Shown piece by piece: positions 22,386 to 62,449 of a DNA stretch of 64,000 bases. This DNA comes from a gamma proteobacterium symbiont of Ctena orbiculata. GTDB taxonomy: Bacteria > Pseudomonadota > Gammaproteobacteria > Chromatiales > Chromatiaceae. Location: NCBI GenBank assembly GCA_003058495.1, contig QBVC01000027.1:62001-126000 (forward strand), read 5' to 3'. A model generated the notes under the pieces. That model did not search any database. It was not told the DNA's origin and worked only from the letters and a program-made list of their open reading frames with translations. Numbering within the stretch: position 1 is the stretch's first letter; each line of letters begins with the position of its first letter. Both the position numbers and the translations under genes were made by a program.

Positions 22386-22402
22386 TGGTATATTGTATAC
22401 CA
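22386..22402. promoter_or_regulatory. GntR operator ahead of pyk (perfect palindrome)
   Basis: TGGTATATTGTATACCA: arms TGGTATA and TATACCA match perfectly around TTG. It lies 59 bases upstream of the pyk start on the minus strand and about 250 bases from the gntR start. Confidence 0.8.
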
Positions 22403-22610
22403 TTCCAATGGCTCTGGTATAGAGGCTGGCAAGGGTATTTTGCCGATCTGCCGGCCGATTCGGTCGCCCGTCGGCTGCCCGCATCGGAACAGAGTCAGCA
22501 GGGTCGGGAGGAATCGTACGGGGCTGGCGTGTTTGCTGATCGAGGTCGGATCCAGGTCAGGCCAGGGGTGAAATTTTAACCAAACAATATCCTCGATTCC
22601 TATGCTTGTG

Positions 22611-22627
22611 GTGTGTATTGTATACAG
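22611..22627. promoter_or_regulatory. GntR operator in the gntR leader (autoregulation)
   Basis: GTGTGTA-TTG-TATACAG retains the invariant GTATAC core and ends 27 bases before the chosen gntR ATG. The placement fits autoregulation. Confidence 0.65.
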
Positions 22628-22654
22628 ATTGATCAGAGACCCAGGATTTTGAGA

Positions 22655-23347
22655 ATGCCCACGAAAGAACTGCGACTGAAACCAATCGACTCGAATAACG
22701 TACTGAAAAGTAAGGTATATGATCAGCTGAAAGCGGCGATCACATCGATGGATATCTACGCCGCCGAGACCGATACCAAGCTCGACGAGCGCCGACTGGC
22801 GGATGAGCTCGGGGTGAGCCGAACCCCGATTCGCGAAGCGCTGATGCTGCTGGAGAAAGAGGGCCTGATCCGGATGATTCCCCGCCGTGGCGCCTTTGTC
22901 GTGCGCAAGACCAAGCGCGAGATCCTGGAGATGATCTGCGTATGGGGGGCCTTGGAGAGCCTGGCTGCGCGGCTTGCGACGGTCAATGCCAGCGACAAGG
23001 AGATTTCGGGATTGCGGGAGACCTTCGTCAACCTGGACGATGCCAACTCGGCCCTGGCCGCCATCGACGAGTACTCGGAAAAGAACATCCGTTTTCACCA
23101 GTCGATTATACGCCTCAGCAAGTGCGAACTCCTGCAGGATATCGCCGATGGGCTCTTCGTCCACATGCGCGCCATCCGCTCCCGTTCGGTCAAGGAGCGC
23201 AGACAGCTCGCTGACTCGGTGGTGGAACACGTGCACATCATCGAGGCGTTGGAGAAACGGGATGCGGTATTGGCGGAAAAACTGGTACGCGAGCACACGG
23301 ATCACCTCTCTACGCATGTAAAGAAACATGTGACCTGGGTTGAGTAG
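22655..23347 (+). CDS. GntR-family (FCD/FadR subfamily) transcriptional regulator
   Basis: A 230-residue regulator. The N-terminal winged helix-turn-helix (residues about 20-85) contains the GntR signature ERRLADELGVSRTPIREALMLLEKEGLI and the wing PRRGAFVV. The C-terminal all-helical FCD domain has the expected metal/ligand residues (NIRFHQSIIRLS, VEHVHIIEAL, REHTDHL). I start at ATG 22655, since an upstream in-frame GTG lies inside an operator copy. FCD regulators commonly bind TNGTATACNA-type palindromes, which is what recurs ahead of the oxalate and glyoxylate genes, so this is the likely controller. The effector is probably a pathway intermediate, not identifiable here. Confidence 0.92.
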   Translation: MPTKELRLKPIDSNNVLKSKVYDQLKAAITSMDIYAAETDTKLDERRLADELGVSRTPIREALMLLEKEGLIRMIPRRGAFVVRKTKREILEMICVWGALESLAARLATVNASDKEISGLRETFVNLDDANSALAAIDEYSEKNIRFHQSIIRLSKCELLQDIADGLFVHMRAIRSRSVKERRQLADSVVEHVHIIEALEKRDAVLAEKLVREHTDHLSTHVKKHVTWVE

Positions 23348-23391
23348 ATGGGTCGCCGCTGTCTCTCGTCAGGATGAAAGGGTAGCGCTGG

Positions 23392-34305: not shown

Positions 34306-35568
34306 CTATTCATCGATGAGTATCGCCCGGAAGTCATTTACATTGGTCCGCGTCGGCCCGGTAATGACAAGGTCGTCCAGTCTTGCGAAGAAGTGGTAAC
34401 CGTTGTTGTCGTTGAGCATATCGACGGCCTTGAGACCAAGCTGTTCCGCACGGCCAAGGGACTCCGGATCGAGCAGGGCGCCCGCGTTGTCCTCGGTGCC
34501 GTCGATGCCGTCGGTATCGCAGGCGATGGCATGAATGCGCGGGTGACTGTCCAGGGCCACCGCGAGGGCAAGCAGAAACTCCGCATCGCGGCCACCGCGA
34601 CCGGAGCCCTTTACCGTTACCGTGGTCTCGCCGCCGGAGAGCAGCACACAGGGTGCCTCCGCCGGCTGACCATGGGTCGCTATCTGCAGTGCGATTCCGG
34701 CATGGACGGAGGCCACGTCCCGGGATTCGCCCTCGATGCTGTTGCCCAGTATCAACGGTTTGTATCCCAGGGACTGCGCCTTGGCGGCCGCCGCCTCCAG
34801 GGCGTCCTGCGCGGTGGCCAGCATCACTGTCTCGGCCCGCTCGAGTCGCTCATCGCCGGGTTTCGGCGTCTCTTCCCCGGCCTCCTCGAGGTGTTGAACA
34901 ACCGCCTTGGGTTCTTCGATGCCGTACTTCCTGAGAATCGCCAACGCATCCGCAAAGGTTGTGGGATCGGCAACGGTGGGGCCGGATGCGATCACCGAGG
35001 GATCGTCGCCGGGGACGTCGGAGATCAGCAGGGTCACCACTTGCGCCGGCGATGCCGCCGCGGCCAGCCTTCCGCCCTTGATCGCCGAGAGATGTTTGCG
35101 CACGCAGTTCATCTCGCTGATGGTGGCGCCGGAGCGCAGCAGCGACTTGTTGATCCGCTGCTTGTCCTCGAGGGTGACGCCGTCCGCGGGCAGGGCGAGC
35201 AGGGCCGAGCCTCCACCCGATATCAGGCAGAGCATCATGTCATCGGGGCCAAGCGCCAGGGCCATCTCCAGGATGCGCCTGGCGGCCTGGCGGCCGGCCT
35301 CGTCCGGCACCGGGTGGGCGGCCTCGACCAGTTCTATCCGCTCGAGGGGAACGCCATGGTCGTAGCGGGTGATGACCAGGCCGGAGAGGGGGCCGTCCCA
35401 GTGCTCCTCCACGGCCTTGGCCATGGATGCCGCCGCCTTGCCTGCGCCTACCACCAGGGTGCGCCCCTTGGGAGGCTCAGGCAGATGCTGCGGCAGGCAG
35501 CTTGCCGGCAGGGCGGCGTCCACCGATGCCCTGAAGAGATCGAGCAGGATGTCTCGCTGGGAGTCCAT
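34306..35568 (-). CDS. gckA: Glycerate 2-kinase (MOFRL family)
   Basis: Phosphorylates D-glycerate to 2-phosphoglycerate. 420 residues with the class II glycerate kinase marks: VVGAGKAAASMAKAVE, CLISGGGSALL, SDVPGDDPSVIASGPT, and the C-terminal MOFRL region with LLSGGETTVTVKGSGRGGRDAEF and DTDGIDGTEDNAGA. It is the last gene of the gcl operon, so it delivers glyoxylate-derived carbon into lower glycolysis, one step from PEP. The alternative name ttuD is used for the same family. Confidence 0.94.
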   Translation of the reverse strand: MDSQRDILLDLFRASVDAALPASCLPQHLPEPPKGRTLVVGAGKAAASMAKAVEEHWDGPLSGLVITRYDHGVPLERIELVEAAHPVPDEAGRQAARRILEMALALGPDDMMLCLISGGGSALLALPADGVTLEDKQRINKSLLRSGATISEMNCVRKHLSAIKGGRLAAAASPAQVVTLLISDVPGDDPSVIASGPTVADPTTFADALAILRKYGIEEPKAVVQHLEEAGEETPKPGDERLERAETVMLATAQDALEAAAAKAQSLGYKPLILGNSIEGESRDVASVHAGIALQIATHGQPAEAPCVLLSGGETTVTVKGSGRGGRDAEFLLALAVALDSHPRIHAIACDTDGIDGTEDNAGALLDPESLGRAEQLGLKAVDMLNDNNGYHFFARLDDLVITGPTRTNVNDFRAILIDE

Positions 35569-35583: not shown

Positions 35584-36471
35584 TTACTCTCCGGCGATAT
35601 CGTGGTCGGCCATCATCTCCAGCGCCCGGCACATGGCCGAGTGGTCCCAGGCCGATCCGCCGTGGGCGGCGCAGGAGTTGAACAGCTCCTGGGCGGTGGC
35701 GGTGTTGGGCAGACTCATGCCGAGGGCGCGGGCGCCCGAGAGGGCCAGGTTGAGATCCTTTTGATGCAGTTCGATACGGAAGCCGGGATCGAAGGTGCGC
35801 TTCACCATGCGTTCGCCGTGGACCTCGAGAATCTTGGAGGAGGCGAAGCCGCCCATCAGCGCCTCGCGGACCTTGGCGGGATCGGCGCCGGCCTTGGAGG
35901 CGAAGAGCAGGGCCTCGGAGACGGCCTCGATGTTGAGGGCAACGATGATCTGGTTGGCGACCTTGCAGGTCTGGCCGTCACCGTTTCCGCCCACCAGGGT
36001 GATGTTCTTGCCCATCAGTTCGAACAGGGGCAGGGTGCGGTCGAAATCCTCCTGAGAGCCACCCACCATGATGGTGAGGGTTCCCCCCTTCGCGCCGACT
36101 TCGCCCCCCGAGACAGGGGCATCAAGATAGGCACACCCGAGATCGTTGATCTTGGCGGCGAACTCCTTGGTTTCGATGGGGGAGATCGAGCTCATGTCCA
36201 CCACGGTCTTTCCGCCGGACAATCCTTGGGCAACACCTTCGTCGTCAAACAGTACCGCCTTCACATGGGGGGTGTCGGGAACCATAATGATGATGGTGTC
36301 CGCCTTTTCGGCCACCTCCTTTGAGCTGCCGCACTCGACGGCTCCCATTCCCTTCAACTCCTCCGGAACGCCTAAAAGCGTATAGGCATAAAGCTCATGA
36401 CCGCCTTTGATGAGGTGTCCCGCCATTGGGGCGCCCATGATTCCCAGACCGATGAAACCGACTTTGCTCAT
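35584..36471 (-). CDS. glxR: 2-hydroxy-3-oxopropionate (tartronate semialdehyde) reductase
   Basis: Reduces tartronate semialdehyde to D-glycerate. 295 residues of the beta-hydroxyacid dehydrogenase family: Rossmann start VGFIGLGIMGAPMAGHL, substrate-binding DAPVSGGEVGAKGGTLTIMVGG, and catalytic Lys segment GNGDGQTCKVANQIIVALN. I start at ATG 36471, just before the Rossmann motif; 62 bases separate it from hyi. GarR would be an equivalent name. Confidence 0.95.
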   Translation of the reverse strand: MSKVGFIGLGIMGAPMAGHLIKGGHELYAYTLLGVPEELKGMGAVECGSSKEVAEKADTIIIMVPDTPHVKAVLFDDEGVAQGLSGGKTVVDMSSISPIETKEFAAKINDLGCAYLDAPVSGGEVGAKGGTLTIMVGGSQEDFDRTLPLFELMGKNITLVGGNGDGQTCKVANQIIVALNIEAVSEALLFASKAGADPAKVREALMGGFASSKILEVHGERMVKRTFDPGFRIELHQKDLNLALSGARALGMSLPNTATAQELFNSCAAHGGSAWDHSAMCRALEMMADHDIAGE

Positions 36472-36533
36472 GATGAAAACTCCTTGCTGATTTCTATGTC
36501 CGCCTCGGCGGCGACTTGTTATCTGTTTTTCGA

Positions 36534-37313
36534 TTAAGCGAGATAGGATTTGACCCAACCCATGCCTTCATCGGTATTACCTGCAGGTTTGTACTCGCAG
36601 CCGATCCAGCCGTTGTAACCAAGGTTGTCGATGAAACCGAACAGGAACGGATAGTCGATCTCGCCGGTACCGGGCTCGTTGCGTCCGGGATTGTCCGCCA
36701 GTTGCATATGCTCGATACTGGACAGGTTGTTCTTGATGGTCATCGCCAGGTCACCTTCCATGATCTGCATATGGTAGATGTCGTACTGCAGGGCGATGTT
36801 GTCCGATCCGCTTTCGGCGATGACATCGAGGGCCTGCCGGGTACCGGTCAGATGGAAGCCGGGAATGTCCCGGGTGTTGATCGGTTCGATCAGCAGGCGT
36901 ATGCCTTCGGCGCCGAGCTTGTCAGCGGCGAATTTCAGGTTGGAGACGAAGGTCTCATGGACCTTGCCCGCGTCCACACCCTCGGGGGTGAGTCCGGCCA
37001 GGCAGTTGATCTGTTTGCAACCCAGGGCATTGGCATAGTCGATGGCCTGGCCCACACCCTCCTGGAATTCAGCGACGCGATCGGGCAGGCAGGCGATCCC
37101 CCGTTCACCGGCACCCCAGTCGCCGGCGGGCAGGTTGTGCAGCACCTGGGTCAGGCCGAACCGCTGCAGGCGCTCGGCCAGCTCCTCTTTGGCGAATGGA
37201 TAGGGGAACAGGTATTCGACACCGCTGAAACCGGCCTTGGCGGCGGCCTCGAATCTGTCCAGGAAGTCCACCTCGTTGTATAGCATGGTGAGGTTAGCAG
37301 CAAACTTTGGCAT
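36534..37313 (-). CDS. hyi: Hydroxypyruvate isomerase
   Basis: Interconverts hydroxypyruvate and tartronate semialdehyde. 259 residues, TIM-barrel of the xylose isomerase-like family. It opens with PKFAANLTMLYNEVDFLDRF and carries metal-binding residues in LIEPINTRDIPGF, QYDIYHMQIMEGD and the terminal IGCEYKPAGNTDEGM. It lies second in the operon, 83 bases after gcl. Confidence 0.95.
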   Translation of the reverse strand: MPKFAANLTMLYNEVDFLDRFEAAAKAGFSGVEYLFPYPFAKEELAERLQRFGLTQVLHNLPAGDWGAGERGIACLPDRVAEFQEGVGQAIDYANALGCKQINCLAGLTPEGVDAGKVHETFVSNLKFAADKLGAEGIRLLIEPINTRDIPGFHLTGTRQALDVIAESGSDNIALQYDIYHMQIMEGDLAMTIKNNLSSIEHMQLADNPGRNEPGTGEIDYPFLFGFIDNLGYNGWIGCEYKPAGNTDEGMGWVKSYLA

Positions 37314-39231: not shown

Positions 39232-39248
39232 TGGTATACAATATACAA
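39232..39248. promoter_or_regulatory. GntR operator ahead of gcl
   Basis: TGGTATA-CAA-TATACAA, one mismatch in the second arm. It lies 60-76 bases upstream of gcl. It contains TACAAT, a -10-like hexamer, so binding would block a promoter on one strand. Confidence 0.8.
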
Positions 39249-44123: not shown

Positions 44124-44356
44124 TTGTATCTCTCCTCCGCACCAGTTGCTGCCTTTGCGTCCACCCTATGGCCCCTCGACCGCGGCAGGGTCGGGATCTC
44201 ACCGGATTTACCGCGGGTGCCCGCCGTTCTGACGCGCCTGCCGGACCCTGGGGCCACGCGGCTATCCACCCGGGACAGCGCAGCCTGGCCGGTGAGAATC
44301 GACCGTCGCCGGGCTGGTCGCATCCGGGTGTTGGAATGGACAGCTTTTATTGTATA

Positions 44357-44373
44357 TGGTATACAATATACGA
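44357..44373. promoter_or_regulatory. GntR operator between pntA and panD
   Basis: TGGTATA-CAA-TATACGA; an additional TTGTATA flanks it on the left (44350-44356), giving overlapping half-sites. It lies 55 bases ahead of the panD start and could control both directions. Confidence 0.78.
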
Positions 44374-45014: not shown

Positions 45015-45031
45015 TGGTATACAATATACCA
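45015..45031. promoter_or_regulatory. GntR operator ahead of the CoA ligase/formate dehydrogenase operon (perfect)
   Basis: TGGTATACAATATACCA, a perfect palindrome with arms of 7 bases. It ends 53 bases before the ligase beta-subunit gene. Confidence 0.85.
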
Positions 45032-47128: not shown

Positions 47129-47192
47129 GGAGGTTTGCGAGGTCTATCCTGCGCTGTCTGCAGATACCGAATAACAGAATGAGGATCGCTTG

Positions 47193-48896: not shown

Positions 48897-51640
48897 GTGA
48901 CTCAATCCGCTTCACCCTGGACGGAGAGGAGGTCGAGGCCGCCCCCGAGGAGACCATCTGGCAGGTAGCCAAACGCGTCGGCAACACGATTCCCCATCTC
49001 TGCTATTCACCCCAACCGGGTTACCGGGCGGACGGCAACTGCCGCGCCTGCATGGTGGAGATCGAGGGGGAACGGGTGCTTGCCGCCTCCTGTCTGCGCA
49101 AACCGACGCCAGGGATGAAGGTGCATTCGGCGAACGAACGCGCCAGGCGCGCCCAAAGCATGGTGGTGGAGCTGCTGCTGGCCGATCAACCGGCGCGTGA
49201 GGCGGCCCATGACCGGGATTCCCATTTCTGGGGTGTTGCCGACGGACTCGGACTCGGGGAGAGCCGCTTCCCGGGCAGGGAGACACACGACCCCGATTCG
49301 AGCCATCCGGCGATGCGGGTGGCCCTGGATGCCTGCATCAACTGCAACCTCTGCCTGCGCGCCTGCCGCGAGGTCCAGGTCAACGATGTCATCGGCATGG
49401 CCTTTCGCGGCCATCATTCTAAGATCGTATTCGACCAGGACGATCCGATGGGGGCGAGCAGCTGTGTCGCCTGCGGCGAGTGCGTGCAGGCCTGTCCCAC
49501 CGGGGCGCTGATGCCCGCGACCCTGGTCGATGCGGCGGGCAGAGGCAGCAGTGCGGCCCACGACAGTGAGGTCGAGAGCGTCTGCCCCTTCTGCGGTGTG
49601 GGCTGTCAGCTGAGCTACCAGGTCAGCGACAACAGGATCATCTCCGTCAGCGGCCGGCCGGGTCCCGCCAACGAGAATCGTCTCTGCGTCAAGGGGCGCT
49701 TCGGATTCGACTACATCAACAATCCGCAACGCCTCACCAGGCCGCTGATCAGGCGCGACGACGCCCCCAAGCGGGGCGACATCGATCTCGATCCGAAAGA
49801 CCCGCTGACGCACTTCAGGGAGGCGAGCTGGGAGGAGGCGTTGGATCGCGCCGCCGGCGGATTGAAGGCGATCCGCGACCGTGACGGCGGTGGCGCGCTG
49901 GCGGGATTCGGTTCGGCGAAATGCTCCAACGAGGAGGCCTACCTGTTTCAGAAGCTGGTGCGCTCGGTGTTCGGCACCAACAACGTCGATCACTGCACCC
50001 GTCTCTGTCACGCCTCCTCGGTGGCGGCGCTGCTGGAGGGGGTCGGTTCGGGAGCGGTCAGCGCGCCCTTCAAGGCGGTGGAGGATGCCGACTTCGTGAT
50101 GGTGATCGGCTCCAATCCCACCGAGAACCATCCGGTCGCCGCCACCTATTTCAAGCAGGCGGCACGGCGCGCCACCCTGGTCGTGATGGATCCCAGGGGG
50201 ATGGCGCTGAAGCGACACGCCACCCACATGCTGCAGTTCAAGCCGGGCAGTGACGTGGCGATGCTCAACGCCATGCTCAATGTCATCATCAGTGAACAGC
50301 TCTACGATCAGGCCTACATAGACGCCCATACGGAAGGCTTCGAGAATCTGAAGCGCCACATCGAGGGGTTCACCCCGGAGGCGATGGCGCCCATCTGCGG
50401 CATCGATGCGGATACCCTGAGAACGGTTGCGCGGAAATACGCCAAGGCCAAGGCGGCCATCATATTCTGGGGCATGGGTGTCTCCCAGCATGTGCACGGG
50501 ACCGACAACTGCCGCTGCCTGATCGCCCTATCCCTGATCACCGGCCAGGTCGGCCGGCCGGGCACCGGACTCCATCCGTTGCGTGGACAGAACAACGTCC
50601 AGGGCGCCTCGGACGCGGGCCTGATCCCGATGATGTATCCCGACTACCAGCCGGTGACCGAACCGCAGGTGCGGCAGCGTTTCGAGGATGCCTGGGGCAC
50701 CGCCCTAGATCCGGAGAAGGGGCTCACCGTGGTCGAGACCATGGATGCGATCCATGCCGGCAAGGTCAAGGGCATGTATATCATGGGCGAGAACCCGGCG
50801 ATGTCCGATCCCAATGTGCAGCATGCCCGGGAGGCCCTGGCGAGCCTCGAGCATCTGGTGGTGCAGGATATCTTTCTTACCGAGACCGCGTTCCACGCCG
50901 ACGTGGTCCTGCCGGCATCGGCCTGGCCCGAGAAGGATGGCACGGTGACCAACACCAACCGCCAGGTGCAGCGGGGGCGCAGGGCGGTGGAGATGCCGGG
51001 GGTTGCGCGCCAGGATTGGTGGATCACCAATGAGATCGCCCAGCGCATCGGCTGCGACTGGAACTACAGCGGGCCCAGCGACGTCTATGGGGAGATGGCC
51101 AGGGTCATGCCTTCACTGGATAACATCAGCTGGGATCGGGTGACCGCGGAGGGGGCGGTGACCTATCCCTGCCCGCAACCCGACCTCCCCGGCAACGAGA
51201 TTATCTTCAGCGAGGATTTCCCCACCGCCAACGGCCTGGGCAAGCTGGTGCCCGCCAGTATCGTGCCCCCGGACGAAGTGCCCGACGACAGCTATCCCAT
51301 GATCCTCACCACCGGCCGCCAGCTCGAACACTGGCATACCGGCGCCATGACCAGGCGGGCCAGCGTGCTCGACAGCCTGGAGCCGGAGGCGATCGCAACC
51401 CTCTCTCCGGCCGACCTGGAGAGGTTTGGTATCGAGCCCGGCGCGAAGGTGAGAGTCACAACACGACGCGGCGTCCTGGAACTGCGGGCGAGGGTTGACA
51501 GTGCGGTGCCCCCGGGTGTGGTATTCATTCCCTTCTGCTATGCGGAGGCGCCGGCGAACGTACTCACCAATCAGGCGCTCGACCCTTACGGCAAGATCCC
51601 GGAGTTTAAATTTTGCGCAGCCAAGGTGGAAGCGGTATGA
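48893..51640 (+). CDS. NAD-dependent formate dehydrogenase, molybdenum/tungsten catalytic alpha subunit
   Basis: A 915-residue catalytic subunit oxidising formate to CO2 in the cytoplasm. Order of domains: [2Fe-2S] ferredoxin (CRACMVE), a His-rich NuoG-like FeS region, two 4Fe-4S clusters (CINCNLCLRACREVQ, CVACGECVQACPTGAL), then the bis-MGD domain with a 4Fe-4S site (CPFCGVGCQLSY) and molybdopterin motifs. The metal-binding residue is Cys372 in VDHCTRLCHASS, so this is not a selenoprotein. It starts at the ATG overlapping the beta-subunit stop. It would turn formate from Oxc/Frc and S-formylglutathione hydrolase into NADH. Confidence 0.95.
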   Translation: MSDSIRFTLDGEEVEAAPEETIWQVAKRVGNTIPHLCYSPQPGYRADGNCRACMVEIEGERVLAASCLRKPTPGMKVHSANERARRAQSMVVELLLADQPAREAAHDRDSHFWGVADGLGLGESRFPGRETHDPDSSHPAMRVALDACINCNLCLRACREVQVNDVIGMAFRGHHSKIVFDQDDPMGASSCVACGECVQACPTGALMPATLVDAAGRGSSAAHDSEVESVCPFCGVGCQLSYQVSDNRIISVSGRPGPANENRLCVKGRFGFDYINNPQRLTRPLIRRDDAPKRGDIDLDPKDPLTHFREASWEEALDRAAGGLKAIRDRDGGGALAGFGSAKCSNEEAYLFQKLVRSVFGTNNVDHCTRLCHASSVAALLEGVGSGAVSAPFKAVEDADFVMVIGSNPTENHPVAATYFKQAARRATLVVMDPRGMALKRHATHMLQFKPGSDVAMLNAMLNVIISEQLYDQAYIDAHTEGFENLKRHIEGFTPEAMAPICGIDADTLRTVARKYAKAKAAIIFWGMGVSQHVHGTDNCRCLIALSLITGQVGRPGTGLHPLRGQNNVQGASDAGLIPMMYPDYQPVTEPQVRQRFEDAWGTALDPEKGLTVVETMDAIHAGKVKGMYIMGENPAMSDPNVQHAREALASLEHLVVQDIFLTETAFHADVVLPASAWPEKDGTVTNTNRQVQRGRRAVEMPGVARQDWWITNEIAQRIGCDWNYSGPSDVYGEMARVMPSLDNISWDRVTAEGAVTYPCPQPDLPGNEIIFSEDFPTANGLGKLVPASIVPPDEVPDDSYPMILTTGRQLEHWHTGAMTRRASVLDSLEPEAIATLSPADLERFGIEPGAKVRVTTRRGVLELRARVDSAVPPGVVFIPFCYAEAPANVLTNQALDPYGKIPEFKFCAAKVEAV

Positions 51641-52617: not shown

Positions 52618-53093
52618 CGCGCAGGCAAAACAGCAAGCCGCCCATGGCGAGCGACAGGTGCGGCGGTGCTGTCCGTCACTGCCGCTGCCGGCTTCGTCGG
52701 GGATCTATTAGTTAATTAATAGACGCCTTGGGACTGCCGCCACTATTGGTGAATAGAGGGGCAGGCCATAAACTATATAAAGGTTGTGGAAATTATATAA
52801 TTACATAGCTATTACAAGAGCTTAGACCATAATGAACCGAGCGGATCCGAGCCGGCAGGCACTGCATTGCGGGCAACCAGTCCGCTATCGCTCAATTCCT
52901 TCGCCAAGTGAAAAAAAAATTAAAAAAAATCTTCAAAAAACCACTTGTTTATATCTGAGGTTGGGCTAACATTCATTACTAGTGGTATGTTGTATACCAT
53001 ATACCATAATTAAATCGTCCCGCGTTCATTTACAAGAGAGCAGCCTTAACACTCCTGGACGCGGATCTGCAAAAAACAGAGAGGATTGAGTAG
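52618..53093. other. AT-rich region upstream of tctC
   Basis: About 476 bases without a gene. It includes an A-run-rich stretch (52905-52945) that should be bent, and an operator copy at 52983-52999. This is probably the promoter of the transporter operon. Confidence 0.55.
52983..52999. promoter_or_regulatory. GntR operator ahead of tctCBA
   Basis: TGGTATG-TTG-TATACCA, then a further ATATACCA half-site to 53006. It lies 95 bases ahead of tctC. Confidence 0.8.
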
Positions 53094-54077
53094 ATGAATT
53101 TAAAACTACGTAGATTCGCCGTGCTTCCACTGGTGCTGACAGCCGCGGCATTCTTTGTCTCCACTGTCAACGTCGCACACGCGGCATGGACTCCGAGAAA
53201 ACCGGTTGAGTTCGTCATTATGGCGGGGCCTGGCGGTGGTGCCGATAAGATGGCGCGTCTGATGCAGACCGTTATCGAAAAACACAACTTCTCCCCGAAG
53301 CCCTTTATCCCGGTCAACAAGCCCGGCGGTTCCGGTGCAGAGGCCCTGGTTCATATGAAGAGTAAGAAGAAGGACAACCATATCGTCATGGTTACCCTCA
53401 ACAGCTTCTATACAACACCTCTGCGTCAACCCAATCTCCGTGTCGATCCGCTGACGTTCAAGCCCATTGCGCGCATGGCGGAAGATACCTTTATCCTCTG
53501 GGTTCACAAGGATGCCGGTATCACCAACATCGAGCAGTTTGTCGATGCGGCAAAGAAGGCAGGTTCCAAATGGACCATGGCCGGTACCGGCAAGGGCGGC
53601 GAGGACGAACTGCTAACCTCCTTTCTCAACAAGACCTACGGTCTGAAAATGAAGTATGTACCGTTCAAGGGGGGTGGTCGTGTCGCCAAGGAGCTGGCCG
53701 GCAAGCATGCGAACTCCACGGTCAACAACCCGTCCGAGGCACTCGGTTTCTATGAGTCTGGCGATGTCGTGCCTATCGTGGCCTTCACCAAGGATCGTCT
53801 GCCGCTGTTTCCCGATACCCCGACCATGGGTGAAGTCGGCGTGCCATACTCCTATTTCATGCAGCGAAGCGTGGTCGGTACCCCCGGTATGACCGATGAT
53901 GCCTATGAGTTCTACAAGGGTGTATTCGAGAAGGTCTACAACTCTGAAGAGTGGAAGGCCTATATGAAGAAGAAGAGCCTGCTCGGTGATTTCCTCAGCG
54001 GCAACGGACTGGTCGACTATTGGAAAGTGAATAACGAAACGCATCGCAAGATGCTCAAAGAGATCGGCGAGATCTGA
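53094..54077 (+). CDS. tctC: Tripartite tricarboxylate transporter, periplasmic binding protein (TctC/Bug)
   Basis: A 327-residue secreted solute-binding protein; signal peptide to about residue 34 (VNVAHA), then WTPRKPVEFVIMAGPGGGADKMARL, the Bug-family start. Bug proteins bind small carboxylates. GAGAGGA precedes the ATG. It leads the tctC-tctB-tctA operon between the formate and oxalate-decarboxylase genes, and oxalate is the most sensible ligand, but that is inference. Confidence 0.92.
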   Translation: MNLKLRRFAVLPLVLTAAAFFVSTVNVAHAAWTPRKPVEFVIMAGPGGGADKMARLMQTVIEKHNFSPKPFIPVNKPGGSGAEALVHMKSKKKDNHIVMVTLNSFYTTPLRQPNLRVDPLTFKPIARMAEDTFILWVHKDAGITNIEQFVDAAKKAGSKWTMAGTGKGGEDELLTSFLNKTYGLKMKYVPFKGGGRVAKELAGKHANSTVNNPSEALGFYESGDVVPIVAFTKDRLPLFPDTPTMGEVGVPYSYFMQRSVVGTPGMTDDAYEFYKGVFEKVYNSEEWKAYMKKKSLLGDFLSGNGLVDYWKVNNETHRKMLKEIGEI

Positions 54078-54142: not shown

Positions 54143-54640
54143 ATGCGACGTGCTGAACTTATCATGGCAATAGTATTGGCGATTTTCTCCGCCTATTTGA
54201 TGTGGAAGAGTACGGAACTGCCAATCGGTTGGATTCCGGAAGAGGGGCCGGGTGGCGGTGCGTTTCCCTTCTGGCTCTCCACGGGCATGTTGTTGAGCTG
54301 CCTGTGGATAATATGGCGTTGGTTCAGGCGTGTGACGCCCCAATCACGTTCCAATCTCCCCTATTTCGATAGCCAGTCTGCGACCCTCATCGGGCTTGTG
54401 GCGGTGGCGTTGACCGCAATGATCGGCTCGATCCACTGGATCGGGGTCTACGGCGCGATTCCGTTCTTCTTCATTTTCTATATGAAGTTCATCGGACGTC
54501 ACTCGTGGCTGCAGACGTCGGCGTTTGCCATCGGGGCGCCTGTGGTCACTTTTTTCTTCTTCGAGATCATGTTGCATATAACCCTGCCCAAGGGTGAGAC
54601 AGAGCCGCTTTTTTACCCGCTCTATGACCTGTTCCTTTAG
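54143..54640 (+). CDS. tctB: Tripartite tricarboxylate transporter, small membrane subunit TctB
   Basis: A 165-residue protein with four membrane segments in the usual TctB spacing; it begins MRRAELIMAIVLAIFSAYLMW. It has the Gly/Pro-rich PEEGPGGGAFPFWLS turn found in the family. It sits between tctC and tctA, as in canonical operons. Confidence 0.88.
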   Translation: MRRAELIMAIVLAIFSAYLMWKSTELPIGWIPEEGPGGGAFPFWLSTGMLLSCLWIIWRWFRRVTPQSRSNLPYFDSQSATLIGLVAVALTAMIGSIHWIGVYGAIPFFFIFYMKFIGRHSWLQTSAFAIGAPVVTFFFFEIMLHITLPKGETEPLFYPLYDLFL

Positions 54641-54717: not shown

Positions 54718-56250
54718 ATGGAGATAATCCAACTCCTGCTCGATGGCTTTCTGGTCGCCTTAGAGCCAACCAATCTGTTCTTGGTGATCATTGGCTGCGC
54801 CGTCGGTCTGTTTATCGGTGCCATGCCTGGACTGGGCTCGGTCAATGGAGTGGCCATCCTGTTGCCTGTTACCTTTATCGTACCTCCCACTTCAGCGATC
54901 ATTTTTCTCGCGGCAATCTACTACGGCGCCATGTACGGCGGCGCTGTCAGCTCGATCATGCTCGGCATACCCGGCGCATCCACCGCCGTTGCGACCACCT
55001 TTGACGGTCGTCCGCTGGCGGTTCAGGGCAAGGCCGACATGGCGCTGGTCGCCGCCGCGGTCGCCTCGTTCGCGGGCGGCACGATTTCGGTCATTCTCTT
55101 TACCGCCTTTGCGCCGCCCCTCGCCCATGTGGCGCTTGCCTTCGGTTCGGCGGAGGAGTTCGCCCTGATGCTGCTGGCATTCGGCACTTTTATCGGCCTG
55201 GGCGGTGACGATATTCCGAAGACCATTTTCTCCATCCTTATCGGTCTCGTGCTCAGCGCGGTGGGCCTGGATGTCCTGAGTGGTCAGCCGCGCCTCATAT
55301 TCGGCGATATACCGGGCTTTTTCCACGGCATCAACTTCCTGGTGCTGGCGATCGGCATCTACGGCATCGGCGAGATTCTCTGGACCATAGAGAGCAGCCG
55401 CGGCGAGGTGCAGGTCTCGCAGGCGGTGGTGACGGTGCGGCGCATCATCGACTCCCTGAAGCAGATGGGCAAGAGCATCAAGACGGTGATCATGGGCTCC
55501 TTCGTCGGCTATTTCGTCGGTCTGCTCCCCGCGGCCGGCGCCACCCCAGGCTCGATCATGGCGTACGGTTTCGCCAAGACCATGTCAAAGGATCCGGACA
55601 GCTACGGCAAGGGCAATGTGGACGGTGTTGCGGCACCCGAATCGGCCAACAACGCCGCCAGCACGGGCTCCATGTTGCCGATGCTTACCCTCGGTATACC
55701 CGGTTCGCCGACCACCGCCATTCTCCTTGGCGGCATGGTCATTTGGGGCCTGGAGCCCGGTCCGCGCCTGTTTGTCGATCAGACCGAGTTTGTCTGGGGG
55801 CTGATTGCCAGCCTCTATGTGGCCAACTTCTTCTCCGTGGTGCTGAATGTGGCCTTCATCCCGCTGTTTATCTGGGTGTTGAAGCTGCCGTTCACCATTC
55901 TGGCGCCGGTGATTTTCGTGCTCTGCGTGGTTGGCGGTTATGCCCCGACCCAGGACATGCACGATGTCTGGCTCATGCTTATCTTCGGTGTCGTCGGCTA
56001 CCTGATGCGCAAACTCGACTATCCCATGGCGCCGATGGTGTTGGCCATCGTCCTGGGGCCACTGGCCGAGTCATCCCTGCGCCAGGCCCTGTTGCAGTCC
56101 GAGGGCTCACTGATGGTCTTTATTGAAAGACCGATATCGGGCCCGATCATGGGGGTCGCGCTGCTGCTCTTCCTGCTGCCGGTGTTCAAGGCCATCAAGG
56201 CCAAATTGACGAATTCCAAGGGCGAGGTGAACGCGGCGTCCGGGGGCTGA
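54718..56250 (+). CDS. tctA: Tripartite tricarboxylate transporter, large membrane subunit TctA
   Basis: A 510-residue permease with about eleven to twelve membrane segments. Family motifs are present: IGAMPGLGSVNGVAILLP, YYGAMYGGAVSSIMLGIPG, and GLLPAAGATPGSIMAYG with the later SMLPMLTLGIPGSPTTA. It forms the channel of the secondary transporter, driven by an ion gradient. Confidence 0.94.
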   Translation: MEIIQLLLDGFLVALEPTNLFLVIIGCAVGLFIGAMPGLGSVNGVAILLPVTFIVPPTSAIIFLAAIYYGAMYGGAVSSIMLGIPGASTAVATTFDGRPLAVQGKADMALVAAAVASFAGGTISVILFTAFAPPLAHVALAFGSAEEFALMLLAFGTFIGLGGDDIPKTIFSILIGLVLSAVGLDVLSGQPRLIFGDIPGFFHGINFLVLAIGIYGIGEILWTIESSRGEVQVSQAVVTVRRIIDSLKQMGKSIKTVIMGSFVGYFVGLLPAAGATPGSIMAYGFAKTMSKDPDSYGKGNVDGVAAPESANNAASTGSMLPMLTLGIPGSPTTAILLGGMVIWGLEPGPRLFVDQTEFVWGLIASLYVANFFSVVLNVAFIPLFIWVLKLPFTILAPVIFVLCVVGGYAPTQDMHDVWLMLIFGVVGYLMRKLDYPMAPMVLAIVLGPLAESSLRQALLQSEGSLMVFIERPISGPIMGVALLLFLLPVFKAIKAKLTNSKGEVNAASGG

Positions 56251-56331: not shown

Positions 56332-56348
56332 TGGTATATTGTATACAC
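56332..56348. promoter_or_regulatory. GntR operator ahead of oxc
   Basis: TGGTATA-TTG-TATACAC, mismatched only in the last bases of the second arm. It lies 194 bases ahead of oxc, in a 290-base spacer. Confidence 0.78.
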
Positions 56349-56541
56349 AATACAAAAAGTAGGTTCCCGGCAGTCGGATTGGACTGCGGGAGGCCTCGAA
56401 GAGACGAGTCCTCTCCCCGGTTAGGGGGGGCGTCAGCCAAGCTAGCGACATCCACGGCTTGGGATTTGGGAGCGGTTGATACGAGAGCATGTTTATTGAA
56501 TCTGCTGAAAGAGAAACGACTCAGCATACCTGGAGCGAGAA

Positions 56542-58257
56542 ATGAGCAACGTGGCAAAAATCGTACCTGATGGCGCAGAGCTGACAGACGGCTTTCATCT
56601 GATCATGGATGCCTTGGAGATGAACGGCATCGAGAATATCTACGGCCTGGTCGGCATTCCGGTGACTGAACTCGGTCGTATGTGGCAGGCCCGGGGTCAT
56701 CAGTTCTACAGCTTCCGGCATGAACAGAATGCCGGTTTTGCCGCTTCCATCGCTGGCTACCTGACCAAGAAACCCGGTATCTGCCTTTCGGTTTCCGCTC
56801 CCGGTTTCCTCAATGCCCTGACCGCACTGGCCAATGCGACCACGAACTGTTTTCCGATGGTGCTGATCAGTGGCTCCAGCGAGCGGGAAATCGTCGACCT
56901 GCAGCAGGGCGATTATGAAGAGATGGACCAGCTGAACATCGCGCGTCCCCACTGTAAGGCGGCCTATCGCATCAATCGTCCCGAGGATATCGGCGTAGGC
57001 GTTGCCCGCGCTATCCGCGCCGCCGCCTCGGGCAGGCCTGGCGGTGTCTATCTCGATATCCCGGCGCGCCTGTTTTGCGAAACCCTGAGTGCCGAAAAGG
57101 GTGAGCAGTCCCTGTTTGCGCCGGTCGATCCGAGTCCGGTCCAGCTGCCCGGTCCGGATGCCATAGAACGCGCCGCCAAACTGATACGGGAAGCGGAACG
57201 GCCCCTGATCCTGCTCGGCAAGGGCGCGGCCTATGCCCAGTGCGATGACGAGATCAAGGCCTTGATCGAGGAGACGGGCATACCCTTCACGCCGATGTCG
57301 ATGGCGAAGGGTCTGCTGCCCGACACCCACCCGCAATGCGCCTCGGCAGCGCGCTCCATGGTGTTGAAGGATTCCGATCTGGTCGTACTGATCGGCGCCC
57401 GCCTGAACTGGCTGCTCGCCCATGGCAAGGGTAAGACCTGGGGCGGCGGCCTGAAGCAGTTTGTGCAGATCGATATCCAGGCCGACGAAATGGACAGCAA
57501 CGTCCCCATCGCAGCGCCGCTGGTAGGGGATATCGAATCCTGCGTCTCACTGCTGCGTCCCGCCCTGCGCGGTATGCAGAAACCGAGTGAATGGGCCAAG
57601 GCGGTCGCCGAGAAGGCATCCGGCAATCGTCTCAAGCTTGCCGGCAAGCTGACCAAGCCGACCGCGGTGATGAACTATCACAATTCACTGGGCGCGATTC
57701 GCGAGGTGCTGAAGAACTATCCCGATATCACCCTGGTCAACGAAGGCGCCAACGCCCTCGACAATGCGCGCATGATCATCGATCAATATAAGCCGAGGCG
57801 GCGCCTGGATACCGGCACCTGGGGCGTGATGGGCATAGGCATGGGATTCAGCGTGGCCGCCGCGGTCGAGACCCGGGCCCCGGTGGTCGCCGTCTCCGGT
57901 GACAGTGCCTTCGGCTTCAGCGGCATGGAGATCGAAACCATCACCCGCTACAAGCTGCCCGTCACCGTGATCGTGATGAACAACGGGGGCATCTATCGCG
58001 GTGATGAAACCAATGAGGCGAGTGATCAGGCGGCCGTCACCGTGTTCAATTCCAGCACCCGTTACGATCAGATGATGGTGGCATTGGGTGGCGAGGGCGT
58101 TCGCGTCACCACCCCCGAGGAGCTGGCCGAGGCATTGGAGAGATCAATCAAATCCGGTAGGCCCACCCTCATCGACGCCATTATCGATCCGGCCGCCGGT
58201 GTGGAATCCGGCCGTATCGGCAACCTGAATGTTGTGAGCACGATCGGCAAGAAGTAG
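56542..58257 (+). CDS. oxc: Oxalyl-CoA decarboxylase
   Basis: Cytoplasmic thiamine-diphosphate enzyme turning oxalyl-CoA into formyl-CoA and CO2. 571 residues, the usual length. The ThDP Glu is present (Glu61 in RHEQNAGF). [19 protein letters not shown] is an Oxc signature, [15 protein letters not shown] the CoA/ADP region, and [14 protein letters not shown]...NNGGIYRG the cofactor-binding segment. It is followed by frc after 48 bases. It starts at the ATG after GGAGCGAGA. Confidence 0.97.
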
Positions 58258-58305: not shown

Positions 58306-59610
58306 ATGACAGATAAAGCGCTTAGCGGAATTCGTGTCCTTGATATGACGCATGTCCAATCGGGTCCTACATGCACCCAGCTATTGGCCTGGTTTGGCGC
58401 GGATGTAATCAAAGTCGAACGACCTCACGTGGGCGACGCGACAAGGGGACAGCTGCGTGACATCCCCGATGTGGACAGCCTCTACTTCACCATGCTCAAC
58501 CACAACAAACGCAGTATCACCTTGAACCCGAAGACGCCGAAGGGCAAGGAGATCTTCACCCGGCTGATCGAGGAGTGCGATGTGCTGGTAGAGAATTTCG
58601 CCCCGGGCGCGCTGGACCGCATGGGTTTTTCCTGGGAACGGATCCAGGAGATCAACCCGCGCATCATCTACGGCTCGGTGAAGGGCTTCGGCCCCGGTCC
58701 CTACCAGGATTGCAAGGTCTACGAGAACGTGGCCCAGTGCGCCGGCGGATCTGCCAGCACCACCGGTTTCGACGACGGCCCGCCGATGGTCACCGGCGCC
58801 CAGATCGGCGATTCCGGAACCGGCCTCCACCTGGCCCTGGGACTGGTGACGGCGCTGATGCACCGGGAGCGCAGCGGCAAAGGGCAGCGTGTCGAGTGCG
58901 CCATGCAGGACGGCGTTCTCAATCTGTGCCGGGTCAAGCTGCGTGACCAGCAGCGCCTGTCACAGGGTCCGCTGCGGGAGTATCCGCAGTTCCCCCATGG
59001 CGAGTTCGGCGAGTCGGTGCCCCGGGCGGGAAACGCCTCCGGCGGCGGCCAGCCGGGGTGGGCGGTGAAGACCAAGGGAGGCGGAATCGACGACTATATC
59101 TACGTCATCATCCAGCCCCAGGTCTGGGAGGCCTGGATGAAGACCATCGGACGCGAGGAGTTGATCAGCGATCCCGAATGGGCCACGCCCGAGGCGCGGC
59201 TGCCGAAGCTGGATCAATGCTTTGCAATGATAGAGGAGTGGACCCTGACGAAGACCAAATTCGAGGCGATGGATATCCTCAATGCCCAGAACATCCCCTG
59301 CGGGCCGATCCTGTCATTGCAGGAGCTTGCCGAAGAGCCGTCGCTGCGCGATAACGGCACTGTGGTGGAGGTGGATCATCCCACCAGGGGTCCCTATCTG
59401 ACGGTTGGCAATCCGATCAAGCTGTCCGCCTCGTCTACCGAGGTTGTTCGCTCCCCGCTGCTCGGTGAACACACCGACGAGATTCTGCGGGATGTACTGG
59501 GTTTCAGCGACAACGCTATCGCGGAGGCTCGGGCAGCCGAGGCCATAGGTTCGGAGCATAAGCTCCATGAAGATGAACATCCGGTTCCCATGCCCGAGGC
59601 GGGGGCCTGA
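58306..59610 (+). CDS. frc: Formyl-CoA:oxalate CoA-transferase
   Basis: Moves CoA from formyl-CoA to oxalate, making oxalyl-CoA and formate. A 434-residue class III CoA-transferase. The catalytic Asp is Asp169 ([10 protein letters not shown]), the same number as in the characterised enzymes. The glycine loop GGGQPG that closes over the active site is visible (about 246-251). [27 protein letters not shown] starts the protein. It pairs with oxc in one operon; together they consume oxalate and keep CoA cycling. Confidence 0.97.
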
Positions 59611-59688
59611 GTTTTTGCATGACCAGGTGTGTAGCCAGGCAAGGTTGTTTCGTTTGTCTGACTGATGCGCAATTGAATTACAGAACAG

Positions 59689-59714: not shown

Positions 59715-59752
59715 GGTTGAATCTGCATACTCCAGCTATTGAGGTCCCAATC

Positions 59753-60619
59753 ATGTCGATAAAAACCATACTTGTTCCAATCGGCGGGCGTAAGGCAAGC
59801 ATGACAGCGCTGGAACGTGCGTTTGTCATCGCAGAACGGTTTGGGGCTCACATCAAAGCGGTGCATGTGATGGAGCGCGCCTTCGATGCCGTCTCGTTTG
59901 AATTTCACCTCCCGGCCCATCTTCGGGGAAGCGTGGAGGAGTCGTCGGAACAGTCGGCCAAAGTGCAGGCCGATGAGTATCGCGAGGCCTTTGAGGATGC
60001 CTGCAACAAGGCCAATGTCACGATCAGCGATAAACCGACCTCGGGGACTGGCGTTTCGGCGGGATGGCACCAGGAGTTCGGTCATGTAGAGGATGTGCTG
60101 GTACGCCATGCCCGCTTGAGTGATGTGGTGACCGTTCCCCAGCCGGTGATCGCATCCGGTCCTGCCCGACGCTCGCCCGTGGGCAGGGCTATCGAAGCCA
60201 TGTTGTGCGCGACCGGCAGGCCGGTCCTGATCGATCCGCCCAAATGCGAGATCAAACAGTGTAACAGCGTGGCCATCGGATGGAACGAGAGCACCGAGGC
60301 CTCACGTGCGGTGGCGATGACAATGCCCTGGCTTACCGTGATGAACAGGGTGACGATCATCGCTTCGCGGAAGCGGGAAAGAGGGGCGAATGAATTGGCC
60401 GAGTATCTCTCCTGGCATGATGTGAAGGCTGAAATCGCCTTTCTCGATAGCCAGGGTGACAGTGTCGGAGAGGCAATGCTGAACATCTGCAAGAGTACCA
60501 GCACCGGTTTTCTCATCGTCGGCGGATTCAGCCACTCCCGGGCCCGGGAGCTCCTCTTCGGGGGTGTGACGCGCCACCTCCTGGCCCATTCGACCATTCC
60601 CACGTTGATGGTGCACTGA
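59753..60619 (+). CDS. Tandem universal stress protein
   Basis: A 288-residue protein with two UspA domains: the first starts SIKTILVPIGGRKASMTALERAF; the second (about 165-288) ends with the nucleotide-loop type GGFSHSRARELLFGGVTRHLLAHS. I start at the ATG of MSIKT. It lies downstream of oxc-frc with a hairpin between and 21 bases ahead of the lyase gene, so its expression may be partly tied to oxalate use. Confidence 0.87.
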   Translation: MSIKTILVPIGGRKASMTALERAFVIAERFGAHIKAVHVMERAFDAVSFEFHLPAHLRGSVEESSEQSAKVQADEYREAFEDACNKANVTISDKPTSGTGVSAGWHQEFGHVEDVLVRHARLSDVVTVPQPVIASGPARRSPVGRAIEAMLCATGRPVLIDPPKCEIKQCNSVAIGWNESTEASRAVAMTMPWLTVMNRVTIIASRKRERGANELAEYLSWHDVKAEIAFLDSQGDSVGEAMLNICKSTSTGFLIVGGFSHSRARELLFGGVTRHLLAHSTIPTLMVH

Positions 60620-60640
60620 CGCCTGCCGGGAGCTGGGCCC

Positions 60641-61498
60641 ATGCGCAGCCTCCTCTTCGTCCCCGGCAATGTCCAGAGGATGCTCGACAAGGCGTTGACC
60701 TGCAGCCCCGATGCCTATGTGCCGGACCTGGAAGATTCAGTACCCGAAGGGGAGAAGGTGAACGCCCGCCGCATGGTCGCGGCCCATCTCGCAAGACTTT
60801 CAGCACGGGATATCCCGGTCATCCCGAGGATAAATGCATATCGGACTCCCTGGTGTGAAGGGGATCTTGCCGCGCTGGTCGGCCCGAATGTCCATGGCGT
60901 CTCCATCGGCAAGATCGAATCGGCCGAGGACATCGCCGCCATATCGGATGCAATCGCCGAACAGGAGAGGAGGGCGGGCGTTGAGGTGGGAACCATCCGC
61001 CTGCTCCCCTGGATCGAGACGGCGCTGGCTGTGGTCAACTGTTATCAGATCTGCCGCGCCAGTTCGCGGATTACGGCGGTGGCATTCGGCGCCGAGGATC
61101 TGACCGACGATCTGGGTATAGAACGCACGGAGGGTGAGAGCGAGACGGCCTATGCGAGATCCGCGGTCTGCATCGCCGCCCGTGCGGCGGGGTTGGACGC
61201 CCTCGATACCCCCTATTTCCATTTTCGCGACAACGAGGGTCTCAAAGCGAGCGTTGTCGCGGCGAAACAGTTGGGCTTCAAAGGCAAATTTGCCATCCAT
61301 CCCGCCCAGCTCGAGCTGCTGAAGGAGATGTTCTCACCATCCGAGGAGGAGCTGGCCTACGCGCGTCGTGTTGTCGAGGTGTTCGAGGAGGCAGAGAGGG
61401 AGGGTAGGGGTTCGACCTCTCTGCAGGGTAAGGTCATCGACGTGCCCGTCGTGAAACGGGCACGATCACTCCTTCGCTCAGCCAAGCATACCGCCTGA
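60641..61498 (+). CDS. HpcH/HpaI-family CoA ester lyase (malyl-CoA lyase type)
   Basis: A 285-residue CitE-like lyase with MRSLLFVPGNVQRMLDKAL, VPDLEDSVP (metal Asp/Glu), PRINAYRTPW, VEVGTIRLLPWIET and the second metal site AFGAEDLTDDLG. Members cleave or form malyl-CoA, beta-methylmalyl-CoA or citramalyl-CoA. Set beside a malate-type CoA ligase and glyoxylate enzymes, L-malyl-CoA to acetyl-CoA plus glyoxylate is the likely reaction. Direction in vivo cannot be read from the sequence. Confidence 0.85.
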   Translation: MRSLLFVPGNVQRMLDKALTCSPDAYVPDLEDSVPEGEKVNARRMVAAHLARLSARDIPVIPRINAYRTPWCEGDLAALVGPNVHGVSIGKIESAEDIAAISDAIAEQERRAGVEVGTIRLLPWIETALAVVNCYQICRASSRITAVAFGAEDLTDDLGIERTEGESETAYARSAVCIAARAAGLDALDTPYFHFRDNEGLKASVVAAKQLGFKGKFAIHPAQLELLKEMFSPSEEELAYARRVVEVFEEAEREGRGSTSLQGKVIDVPVVKRARSLLRSAKHTA

Positions 61499-61744
61499 AT
61501 GCTGCTGAGGATCCCGCAACAGCGGGCCGACGCGACAGATAAAGACGGTTTTCACGCCCTGGTAAAGGAGTGCGACACCCATGATGGCGGGGATGAGGAC
61601 CGCCATGTGCTGCAGCAGGGAGTAGCCGAATGCTGACGAGATCAACAGTGCCACGCCAAGAGCGATCTGAAAAAGGCTGAAAATGGATTTGCAGTCATTG
61701 GATGAGAGGGCGTTGCGGTTGACGCTGCTGGGCTGCTGATACAT
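61478..61744 (-). CDS. Small membrane protein, YgaP/DUF2892-like
   Basis: An 88-residue protein with two membrane segments (SLFQIALGVALLISSAFGYSLL and AVLIPAIMGVALLYQG). It resembles the DUF2892 membrane module found in YgaP and short rhodanese-linked proteins. It overlaps the 3' end of the lyase gene by 21 bases on the opposite strand. Function unknown. Confidence 0.7.
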   Translation of the reverse strand: MYQQPSSVNRNALSSNDCKSIFSLFQIALGVALLISSAFGYSLLQHMAVLIPAIMGVALLYQGVKTVFICRVGPLLRDPQQHSGGMLG

Positions 61745-62449
61745 TGGTTCAACTCCTAGTCAAATTAAATCACACATCGAGTCTCTGGCTCGAAAGGGCA
61801 GGCTCATGCCTATGTTGCAGTGCAGTATAAAGGACCGTTTGCTGCATTGCAACATCGATTGGCAGGGTAAGTGCCCGATTCAAAATAAGAATATTACTAT
61901 ATAGGGCGCGTCTGATGAATACTGCGACCGCACTCTCAAGCTCCCGCCAATGGAATCTCCCTGCCCATCGGATAGGTGAAATCTATCAGTTGAAGAGAAT
62001 GATGAGATTGATAATCGTCAATGGTCGGTTCGCGTACTCGTTTTCTTCCTGGGCGACCCGACAAATGGGCCGATGCGACTGGCCATGTGCTGTATTTGGC
62101 TGCTGGTTCCGGGTGTCACGCCTCGCCGGGGCGATTGGCTTTCCCTGTCAGCCGGTTGGCTTGTCGCTCCGGCAGGGCAACCGGCCTCAACAATATCTGC
62201 CCTTATATCTGGTATTTGGTATACAATATACTATATATTACTGGTGACAGCAGGAAGTTCATTAGCAGCAAGCAGCCGCGGATGTGGTAGCGCGGGGAGT
62301 GAGGTGTATTCAGGAGATTTGCTTCAAGCAGCCTCATCAGAGACAGGATGACACTATCCTGAAGCGCTGATTCAACTCCGGATTGAGTCTGGTCCCAGCG
62401 CCCAACAGTCGGGCATTAAAAAAGCCTGCAACGAGGAGGAATAGATCTT
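61745..62449. other. Long non-coding stretch upstream of nhaD
   Basis: About 700 bases with no supported gene. It contains a GntR operator (62217-62233) and a small hairpin CAGGAT...ATCCTG near 62344-62361. The frames open here show no protein-like pattern. The leader is unusually long for one gene and may hold structure. Confidence 0.5.
62217..62233. promoter_or_regulatory. GntR operator ahead of nhaD
   Basis: TGGTATA-CAA-TATACTA, with a second GGTAT half-site just left (62211-62215). It lies 217 bases ahead of nhaD. Confidence 0.75.

Follow-up and report, generated by a model that had tools for sequence, protein, structure and literature searches.

A putative GTATAC-core operator set and its predicted GntR/FCD reader in a probable oxalate-growth regulon of a Ctena orbiculata symbiont

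A 64,000-nucleotide stretch from the genome of a gammaproteobacterial symbiont of Ctena orbiculata (contig QBVC01000027.1, positions 62,001 to 126,000; hereafter the window) carries genes for the use of oxalate, glyoxylate and formate that are repeatedly preceded by copies of one inverted-repeat motif (Table 1). We consider it probable that these copies are the operator set of a regulon for growth on oxalate, with the product of the GntR/FCD gene at 22655-23347 as their reader. As judged from sequence comparison, this regulon is likely autoregulated, conserved across classes and controlled by a repressor. The pattern scored was TGGTATA-N3-TATACCA (TGGTATANNNTATACCA), with mismatches counted over the 14 arm positions. 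At up to three mismatches the window holds 11 matches in seven places, compared with a mean of 0.58 and a largest count of 4 in shuffled windows, none of 100 shuffles reaching 11.

Eight copies had been listed in an earlier note made from the window alone. Seven of them are strong: those at 22386 and 45015 have perfect arms, in keeping with the two perfect palindromes reported, one mismatch each is present at 39232, 44357, 52983 and 62217, and two are found at 56332. The eighth copy, at 22611 (GTGTGTATTGTATACAG), differs at five positions. Because the best match in shuffled upstream regions reaches five mismatches or fewer in about 40% of cases (two mismatches are reached in 0.06%), we downgraded it and count it only as a possible core site; it is kept in the sister genome G006. 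This copy is a weak point of the earlier reading; the perfect site at 22386 also lies in the gntR leader region. GTATAC is contained in all eight copies, as had been stated. At four places (44350, 52983, 56332 and 62210) the match is overlapped by another one shifted by 7 bp, and these four are therefore 24-bp arrays consisting of a half-site, a 10-bp core (TTGTATACCA or its complement) and a further half-site. The sequence common to different window sites is limited to 17-24 bp. Mechanically called open reading frames (ORFs) cover the sites at 22611, 44350 and 62217. However, homologues of 230 amino acids place the true start of gntR at 22655 and the ATG of panD is located at 44428, both 3' of their sites, and the ORF 61915-62247 over the 62217 site has no family match. 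With the true starts, all strong sites are intergenic, in agreement with the original description.

The window genome (G000) comprises 4.53 Mb in 51 contigs, with the window corresponding to C51:62001-126000. When it was scanned for the motif and, as a control, for the reversed motif, 10 matches in nine places were obtained at up to one mismatch, as opposed to none for the control. The earlier note had called for such a scan and had named equal frequency at random places across the genome as the outcome that would speak against operators; the motif is clearly enriched instead, and chance was discarded as an explanation on the counts in the window and in the genome. Nine of the 10 matches fall within a 47-kb segment (C51:84386 to 131566), including two just beyond the window. 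The one at C51:128606 is flanked by a gene resembling those for 2-hydroxy-3-oxopropionate reductase, with scores below the NCBIfam cut-offs, and by another gene for formyl-CoA transferase, the second in this genome region, and the one at C51:131550 has neighbouring genes without Pfam match. The tenth match, a perfect one, resides at C6:78004 between the gene for tRNA-Leu and nuoA, the first gene of the complex I operon. At up to two mismatches 18 forward and 6 reversed matches were counted, so that the weaker matches are mostly background. Among the 56 genomes searched, only the window genome itself and G006 (record NATV01000139.1, likewise a Ctena orbiculata symbiont; 93%) contain an orthologue of the GntR protein. 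For the other 54, the search gave either no match or paralogues with identities of up to 34%, and the motif occurs there at the level of the control (12 versus 13 reversed, up to one mismatch), and the same holds for the 20 genomes of the same genus that lack the orthologue (6 versus 6). In 33 genomes with an orthologue, i.e. those behind 33 of the 80 loci described below, it was found 71 times versus 5 times reversed, with at least one match in 32 of the 33.

A profile search of genome contigs, built on 31 aligned GntR homologues, yielded 257 confirmed stretches, the best 80 of which were kept. These loci were chosen by the GntR protein alone and not by the motif. Within about 400 bp upstream and at up to two mismatches, a site precedes gntR in 71 of the 80 loci (51 at up to one mismatch). 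For tctC and the sucC-type ligase gene the counts are 32 of 39 and 17 of 20, and the reversed control gave 0/80, 0/39 and 0/20 for the three genes, respectively. Over the whole 1.24 Mb of the 80 loci, 72 matches at up to one mismatch contrast with none for the reversed motif. Homologues of oxc, frc or tctA (>45% identity) are present in 75 of the loci. The record titles include gammaproteobacteria and alphaproteobacteria as well as metagenome-assembled genomes (MAGs) that bear the label Acidobacteria or, in one case, Dehalococcoidia (MAG labels as deposited). Culturable carriers of a gntR-oxc-frc locus among the records are Pelagibius litoralis, Pelagibius marinus and Lutibaculum baratangense. 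Upstream of FCD paralogues (27-34% identity), no site at up to two mismatches was found in 27 regions, one of 28 being too short. The proposal of one operator, one regulon and the GntR protein as its predicted reader is thus strengthened by a motif that stays at chance level in the absence of this protein, precedes its gene in most loci and is lacking at its paralogues. The outer half-site also recurs: 26 of 158 distinct sites in relatives have 5-7 matches out of 7 to the outer right half-site, compared with about 1% of shuffled flanks, in a count in which overlapping arrays may appear twice. The high columns of the motif profile are in part a matter of selection since its sites were chosen by pattern.

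The GntR protein exhibits both domains expected for its family (PF00392, 56.3 bits, cut-off 27; PF07729, 77.4 bits, cut-off 24.3), and its closest protein record stems from Candidatus Thiodiazotropha sp. (95%); the window genome therefore probably belongs to Thiodiazotropha or to a genus near it. The folds nearest to its structure model (mean predicted local distance difference test score 75, predicted template modelling score 0.67) are those of PmiR, a GntR protein from Brucella and Atu1419/VanR. In the fold ranking, Atu1419/VanR takes ranks 3-7, TM0439 rank 9, NanR rank 37 and FadR rank 42, and on this model we assign the protein as a predicted VanR-type FCD regulator. Residues N144, H148, H192 and H214 are invariant in the 31 homologues and align with the Asp/His3 metal ligand positions of TM0439. 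The alignment thus shows the three His plus Asn/Asp described for the VanR-type metal site (PMC7797058), and a metal site is predicted. The GTATAC-core motif appears conserved together with gntR across the loci. Scores remain far below the cut-offs of the NCBIfam models for NanR (67.2 bits versus 260) and GlcC (28.7 versus 301) and of the TIGR03338 equivalog for PhnR of the Burkholderia type (99.7 versus 271.5).

Among characterized regulators, Atu1419 from Agrobacterium fabrum (PDB 6z74, 6za3) shares the FCD fold (E 2.7e-08) and the three His plus Asn/Asp of the metal site, and it is described as binding the 10-mer 5'-ATGTATACAT-3', a palindrome centred on the same GTATAC core as the window motif, with contacts to its G3 (PMC7797058). 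It differs in controlling hydroxycinnamate genes, in being only 26% identical to the window protein and in its operator, which consists of a plain 10-bp palindrome and lacks the additional half-site at a distance of 7 bp. NanR, the sialic acid repressor of E. coli, is a GntR/FCD repressor for which several dimers side by side on repeated GGTATA units are reported (PMC8012715); these units are direct repeats, whereas the core of the window motif is inverted. Of the solved structures, PmiR from Pseudomonas aeruginosa (PDB 7xp0/7xp1) ranks first in both fold and sequence, at 28-29% identity. GlcC/GlcR, the glycolate regulators of the GntR family, and BhcR, an IclR-type glyoxylate regulator, operate in neighbouring C2-acid metabolism, and GlcR is presented as a GntR repressor (PMC11323563). 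Their targets, however, are glycolate oxidase or the beta-hydroxyaspartate cycle and not oxalate, and the same source notes that Paracoccus does not grow on oxalate (PMC11323563).

We propose that in the absence of substrate regulator dimers would occupy the 10-bp core, with one half-site TTG and one TGG, and exert repression, while further dimers would sit on the outer half-site(s) 7 bp away, over or beside the promoters. This arrangement of a central dimer flanked by others is modelled on the reports on Atu1419 and NanR. The regulator would be released once its FCD metal site has bound oxalate or one of the near products glyoxylate and oxalyl-CoA, and chemistry suggests oxalate itself as the metal-bound inducer. 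Oxalate would be imported by TctCBA, with NhaD maintaining the sodium gradient, and converted to oxalyl-CoA by Frc and the extra CoA ligase. Via Oxc and Fdh, oxalyl-CoA would yield formate and CO2, giving NADH, while a part would be reduced to glyoxylate for carbon by the candidate reductase at 39615 and pass into the Gcl route. Supply would be raised for NADPH (Pnt), a CoA precursor (PanD) and flux from phosphoenolpyruvate (PEP) to pyruvate (third Pyk). Reduction of oxalyl-CoA to glyoxylate is reportedly also part of oxalate assimilation in Methylobacterium extorquens AM1, for which we know of no regulator.

A narrower regulon is conceivable, though in our view doubtful. Control by the GntR protein would then be confined to the operon of gntR itself, tctCBA, the CoA ligase and oxc-frc, and the pyk, gcl, panD/pnt, nhaD and nuo sites would be weak or without function. 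In line with this, only gntR, tctC and the ligase gene have the site in most orthologous loci, and the gcl and pyk sites were seen in the window genome alone among the loci studied, with the nuo site occurring in addition in G006. However, sites also recur in relatives ahead of formate dehydrogenase (L189, L203, L205), transhydrogenase (L191) and panD (L210), and locus L080 has sites ahead of nhaD and an frc. Furthermore, the 10 matches in the window genome are too many for strays. Sites in relatives also precede CoA ligase genes of the window type (L198, L210, L211), malate dehydrogenase-sucCD (L193, L195) and, in L200, the gene for a formate-tetrahydrofolate ligase that agrees at 533 of 557 positions with a protein encoded in L202. 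The breadth originally claimed is supported by these sites at fdh, pnt, panD, nhaD, the ligase, mdh-sucCD and formate-tetrahydrofolate ligase; weak points are pyk, gcl and nuo, with sites seen only in the window genome, apart from nuo in G006. An even wider reading, which we put forward tentatively and hold to be rather less probable than its opposite, involves a VanR/FCD-type oxalate sensor not described so far. Present in alpha- and gammaproteobacteria and in records labelled Acidobacteria, it would reset the entire core metabolism, from uptake, sodium balance, CoA charging and supply, formate oxidation and NADPH to the PEP-pyruvate step and C1-folate or tricarboxylic acid cycle entry. In the sulfur-oxidizing lineage of the window genome it would also have captured respiratory complex I, through an operator that arose at the place of the tRNA terminator of relatives.

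Several findings weigh against an oxalate regulon of this kind. The loci, being the best 80 of 257, are non-independent and include near duplicates (L084/L085). A site directly ahead of oxc was found in 0/47 cases, ahead of frc in 0/68 and ahead of fdhB in 1/14; oxc and frc lack a site of their own in relatives because they usually follow gntR there, an order read in 20 of the 80 loci. The window differs in this respect: gntR is set apart there, and oxc is preceded by an operator of its own. Nine of the 80 orthologues have no site within 430 bp upstream. In five of these (L078, L080, L113, L118, L141) gntR resides closely behind tctA, and in three of the five the site precedes tctC, whereas L103, L107, L145 and L075 have no site at up to two mismatches in the whole locus. 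Some sites adjoin genes without known link, i.e. those for PrkA (L207), a methyltransferase (L215) and a tetratricopeptide repeat/sulfotransferase protein (L192), with further sites, lacking an assigned target, in L196, L201, L214, L216 and L217. In some loci, oxc is replaced by genes for thiamine pyrophosphate (TPP) enzymes only about 25% identical to Oxc/Gcl, which bears on the substrate there. Finally, G006 keeps gntR (94%) but has a single match at up to one mismatch (nuo), its best upstream matches showing five mismatches at gcl and four at gntR, and the full operator set is present only in the window genome.

The site in L208 is located near acylase and CoA-transferase genes and has no obvious link. 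Those in L192, L194 and L197 lie near an ORF of similar size in all three (656-660 amino acids), the family of which is known for L192 only. In L079, L083, L089, L092 and others, the TPP enzyme of about 25% identity occupies the place of oxc and adjoins an frc homologue; it is possibly another oxalyl-CoA or related lyase.

With regard to the sign of control, we deem repression likelier than activation. The distance between site and start codon is 27-87 bp for pyk, gntR, gcl, panD, the ligase gene and tctC, and thus short in most cases. In the best promoter match, a hexamer resembling a -10 element is part of the site in the case of gcl, panD and oxc, and directly precedes it in the case of gntR; this is weak evidence, since the site itself resembles a -10 element and promoters were scored by a simple home-made consensus count. 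Moreover, the related proteins NanR and Atu1419 are described as repressors (PMC8012715, PMC7797058). That the GntR protein acts mainly as an activator is accordingly an unlikely alternative, favoured by distances of 186-366 bp for some sites, with 186-226 bp for oxc, nhaD and pntA, and by the position of the nuo site upstream of a TTGACA-like element.

Another reader of the motif is highly improbable. The GntR protein had been taken for the only dedicated regulator in the cluster, but its gene is not the only regulator gene in the window: an AraC-type product is encoded at 29928-30962 (-), and the genome furthermore contains GntR paralogues of 24 and 32% identity. Yet araC does not occur among the recurrent neighbours (rows of at least 3) in the orthologue loci, and the site tracks the GntR protein across the 80 loci. 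An FCD paralogue was rejected as reader, as the 20 sister genomes have one of 29-34% identity with the motif at control level, and as the paralogues' own upstream regions are devoid of sites.

The palindromes can hardly be hairpins, terminators or a dispersed repeat instead of operators. Their arms can fold, and the nuo copy resides at the place where sister genome G004 has a strong hairpin resembling a tRNA terminator (-21.9 kcal/mol, z -7.5). In the window genome, however, the operator at this place folds weakly (-5.7, z -1.55) and has no T run, on which ground terminators were dismissed as a general reading; in addition, sites precede start codons and not gene ends, and only 17-24 bp are shared between places. 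All 22 genomes of the genus align over the tRNA-Leu-nuoA region. Read by eye, the nuo site is perfect in the window genome, has one mismatch in G006 and two in G016 and G021, both of which lack the regulator, and is not recognisable in the other 18. The nuo copy may have arisen as an operator from a terminator, or it may resemble the motif by chance; the remnants in its flanks raise the odds of the latter, and nuo is counted as a candidate target only.

Regulons under GntR/FCD proteins are known as such; what appears to be new is the present member, together with its substrate and breadth. Among papers retrieved by keyword we found no oxalate regulon of this kind, and the word oxalate is absent from the main text of a comparative collection of 33 proteobacterial regulator groups (PMC5343134). 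Papers on Thiodiazotropha retrieved in the same way gave no mention of oxalate use. Oxalate is a widespread, highly oxidized product of plants and microbes, and here regulator, operator and targets can be named. The findings also suggest that oxalate may support the life of a lineage with relatives among chemosynthetic clam symbionts.

Table 1. Predicted operators and genes of the proposed regulon in the window
Feature	Position	Strand	Remarks
Operator, perfect arms	22386..22402	+	58 bp ahead of pyk (-); also within gntR leader region
Weak core-only operator, 5 mismatches	22611..22627	+	27 bp ahead of gntR
Operator	39232..39248	+	59 bp ahead of gcl (-)
24-bp operator array	44350..44373	+	between pntAA (-, 226 bp) and panD (+, 54 bp)
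Operator, perfect arms	45015..45031	+	52 bp ahead of sucC-type ligase gene
24-bp operator array	52983..53006	+	87 bp ahead of tctC
24-bp operator array	56332..56355	+	186 bp ahead of oxc
24-bp operator array	62210..62233	+	216 bp ahead of nhaD
Pyruvate kinase (pyk)	20864..22327	-	third copy in genome; this copy absent from G006
GntR/FCD regulator, 230 amino acids, predicted operator reader	22655..23347	+	Pfam GntR and FCD; VanR-type fold matches
Glycerate 2-kinase-like	34306..35568	-	below NCBIfam cut-off
Tartronate semialdehyde reductase, start uncertain	35584..36558	-	over NCBIfam cut-off
Hydroxypyruvate isomerase	36534..37313	-	over cut-off
Glyoxylate carboligase (gcl)	37397..39172	-	over cut-off
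Candidate oxalyl-CoA reductase	39615..40679	+	weakly ketopantoate-reductase-like; no Pfam hit; putative
Transhydrogenase beta (pntB)	41145..42533	-	over cut-off
Transhydrogenase alpha (pntA)	42546..44123	-	over cut-off
Aspartate 1-decarboxylase (panD)	44428..44880	+	over cut-off
CoA ligase beta, sucC type	45084..46253	+	third copy in genome
CoA ligase alpha, sucD type	46253..47128	+	over cut-off
Formate dehydrogenase NuoEF-like subunit	47190..48896	+	below cut-off
Formate dehydrogenase alpha	48713..51640	+	over cut-off; ORF bounds, true start later
TctC-type binding protein	53094..54077	+	family match
tctB	54143..54640	+	from position and conservation with tctC and tctA, not from a family search
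tctA	54718..56250	+	from position and conservation; no NCBIfam hit
Oxalyl-CoA decarboxylase (oxc)	56542..58257	+	TIGR03254 908.8 bits (cut-off 739.4)
Formyl-CoA:oxalate CoA-transferase (frc)	58306..59610	+	TIGR03253 674.3 bits (cut-off 504.2)
NhaD Na+/H+ antiporter	62450..63859	+	over cut-off

Oxalate catabolism via oxc-frc is indicated by scores above the cut-offs of both equivalog models. Of the 22 genomes in the genus, the window genome alone contains oxc, the next best protein being 30% identical. G006 has two copies each of pyk and the sucC-type ligase gene, the window genome three each. The sucC-type gene reaches 590.3 bits with the NCBIfam model for malate-CoA ligase beta (cut-off 604) and 607.2 with that for succinate-CoA ligase beta (cut-off 370), and on these scores a serine-cycle role of the sucCD-type genes is a possible reading. 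The product of 39615-40679 has no Pfam hit and no significant match in the PDB (ketopantoate reductase, E 0.63), and PF02558 was found in one of 120 listed homologues; we regard it as a candidate oxalyl-CoA reductase only.

Directly behind gntR, a gene for a protein of 589 amino acids (23392-25161) without Pfam or NCBIfam hit is 90% identical in G006 and perhaps part of the gntR operon. It is followed by a gene for a protein of the histone deacetylase type (25283-26200, PF00850). Behind oxc-frc, a gene resembling those for CitE/malyl-CoA lyase (60641-61498) scores below the equivalog cut-offs and is also present in L080 and L083.

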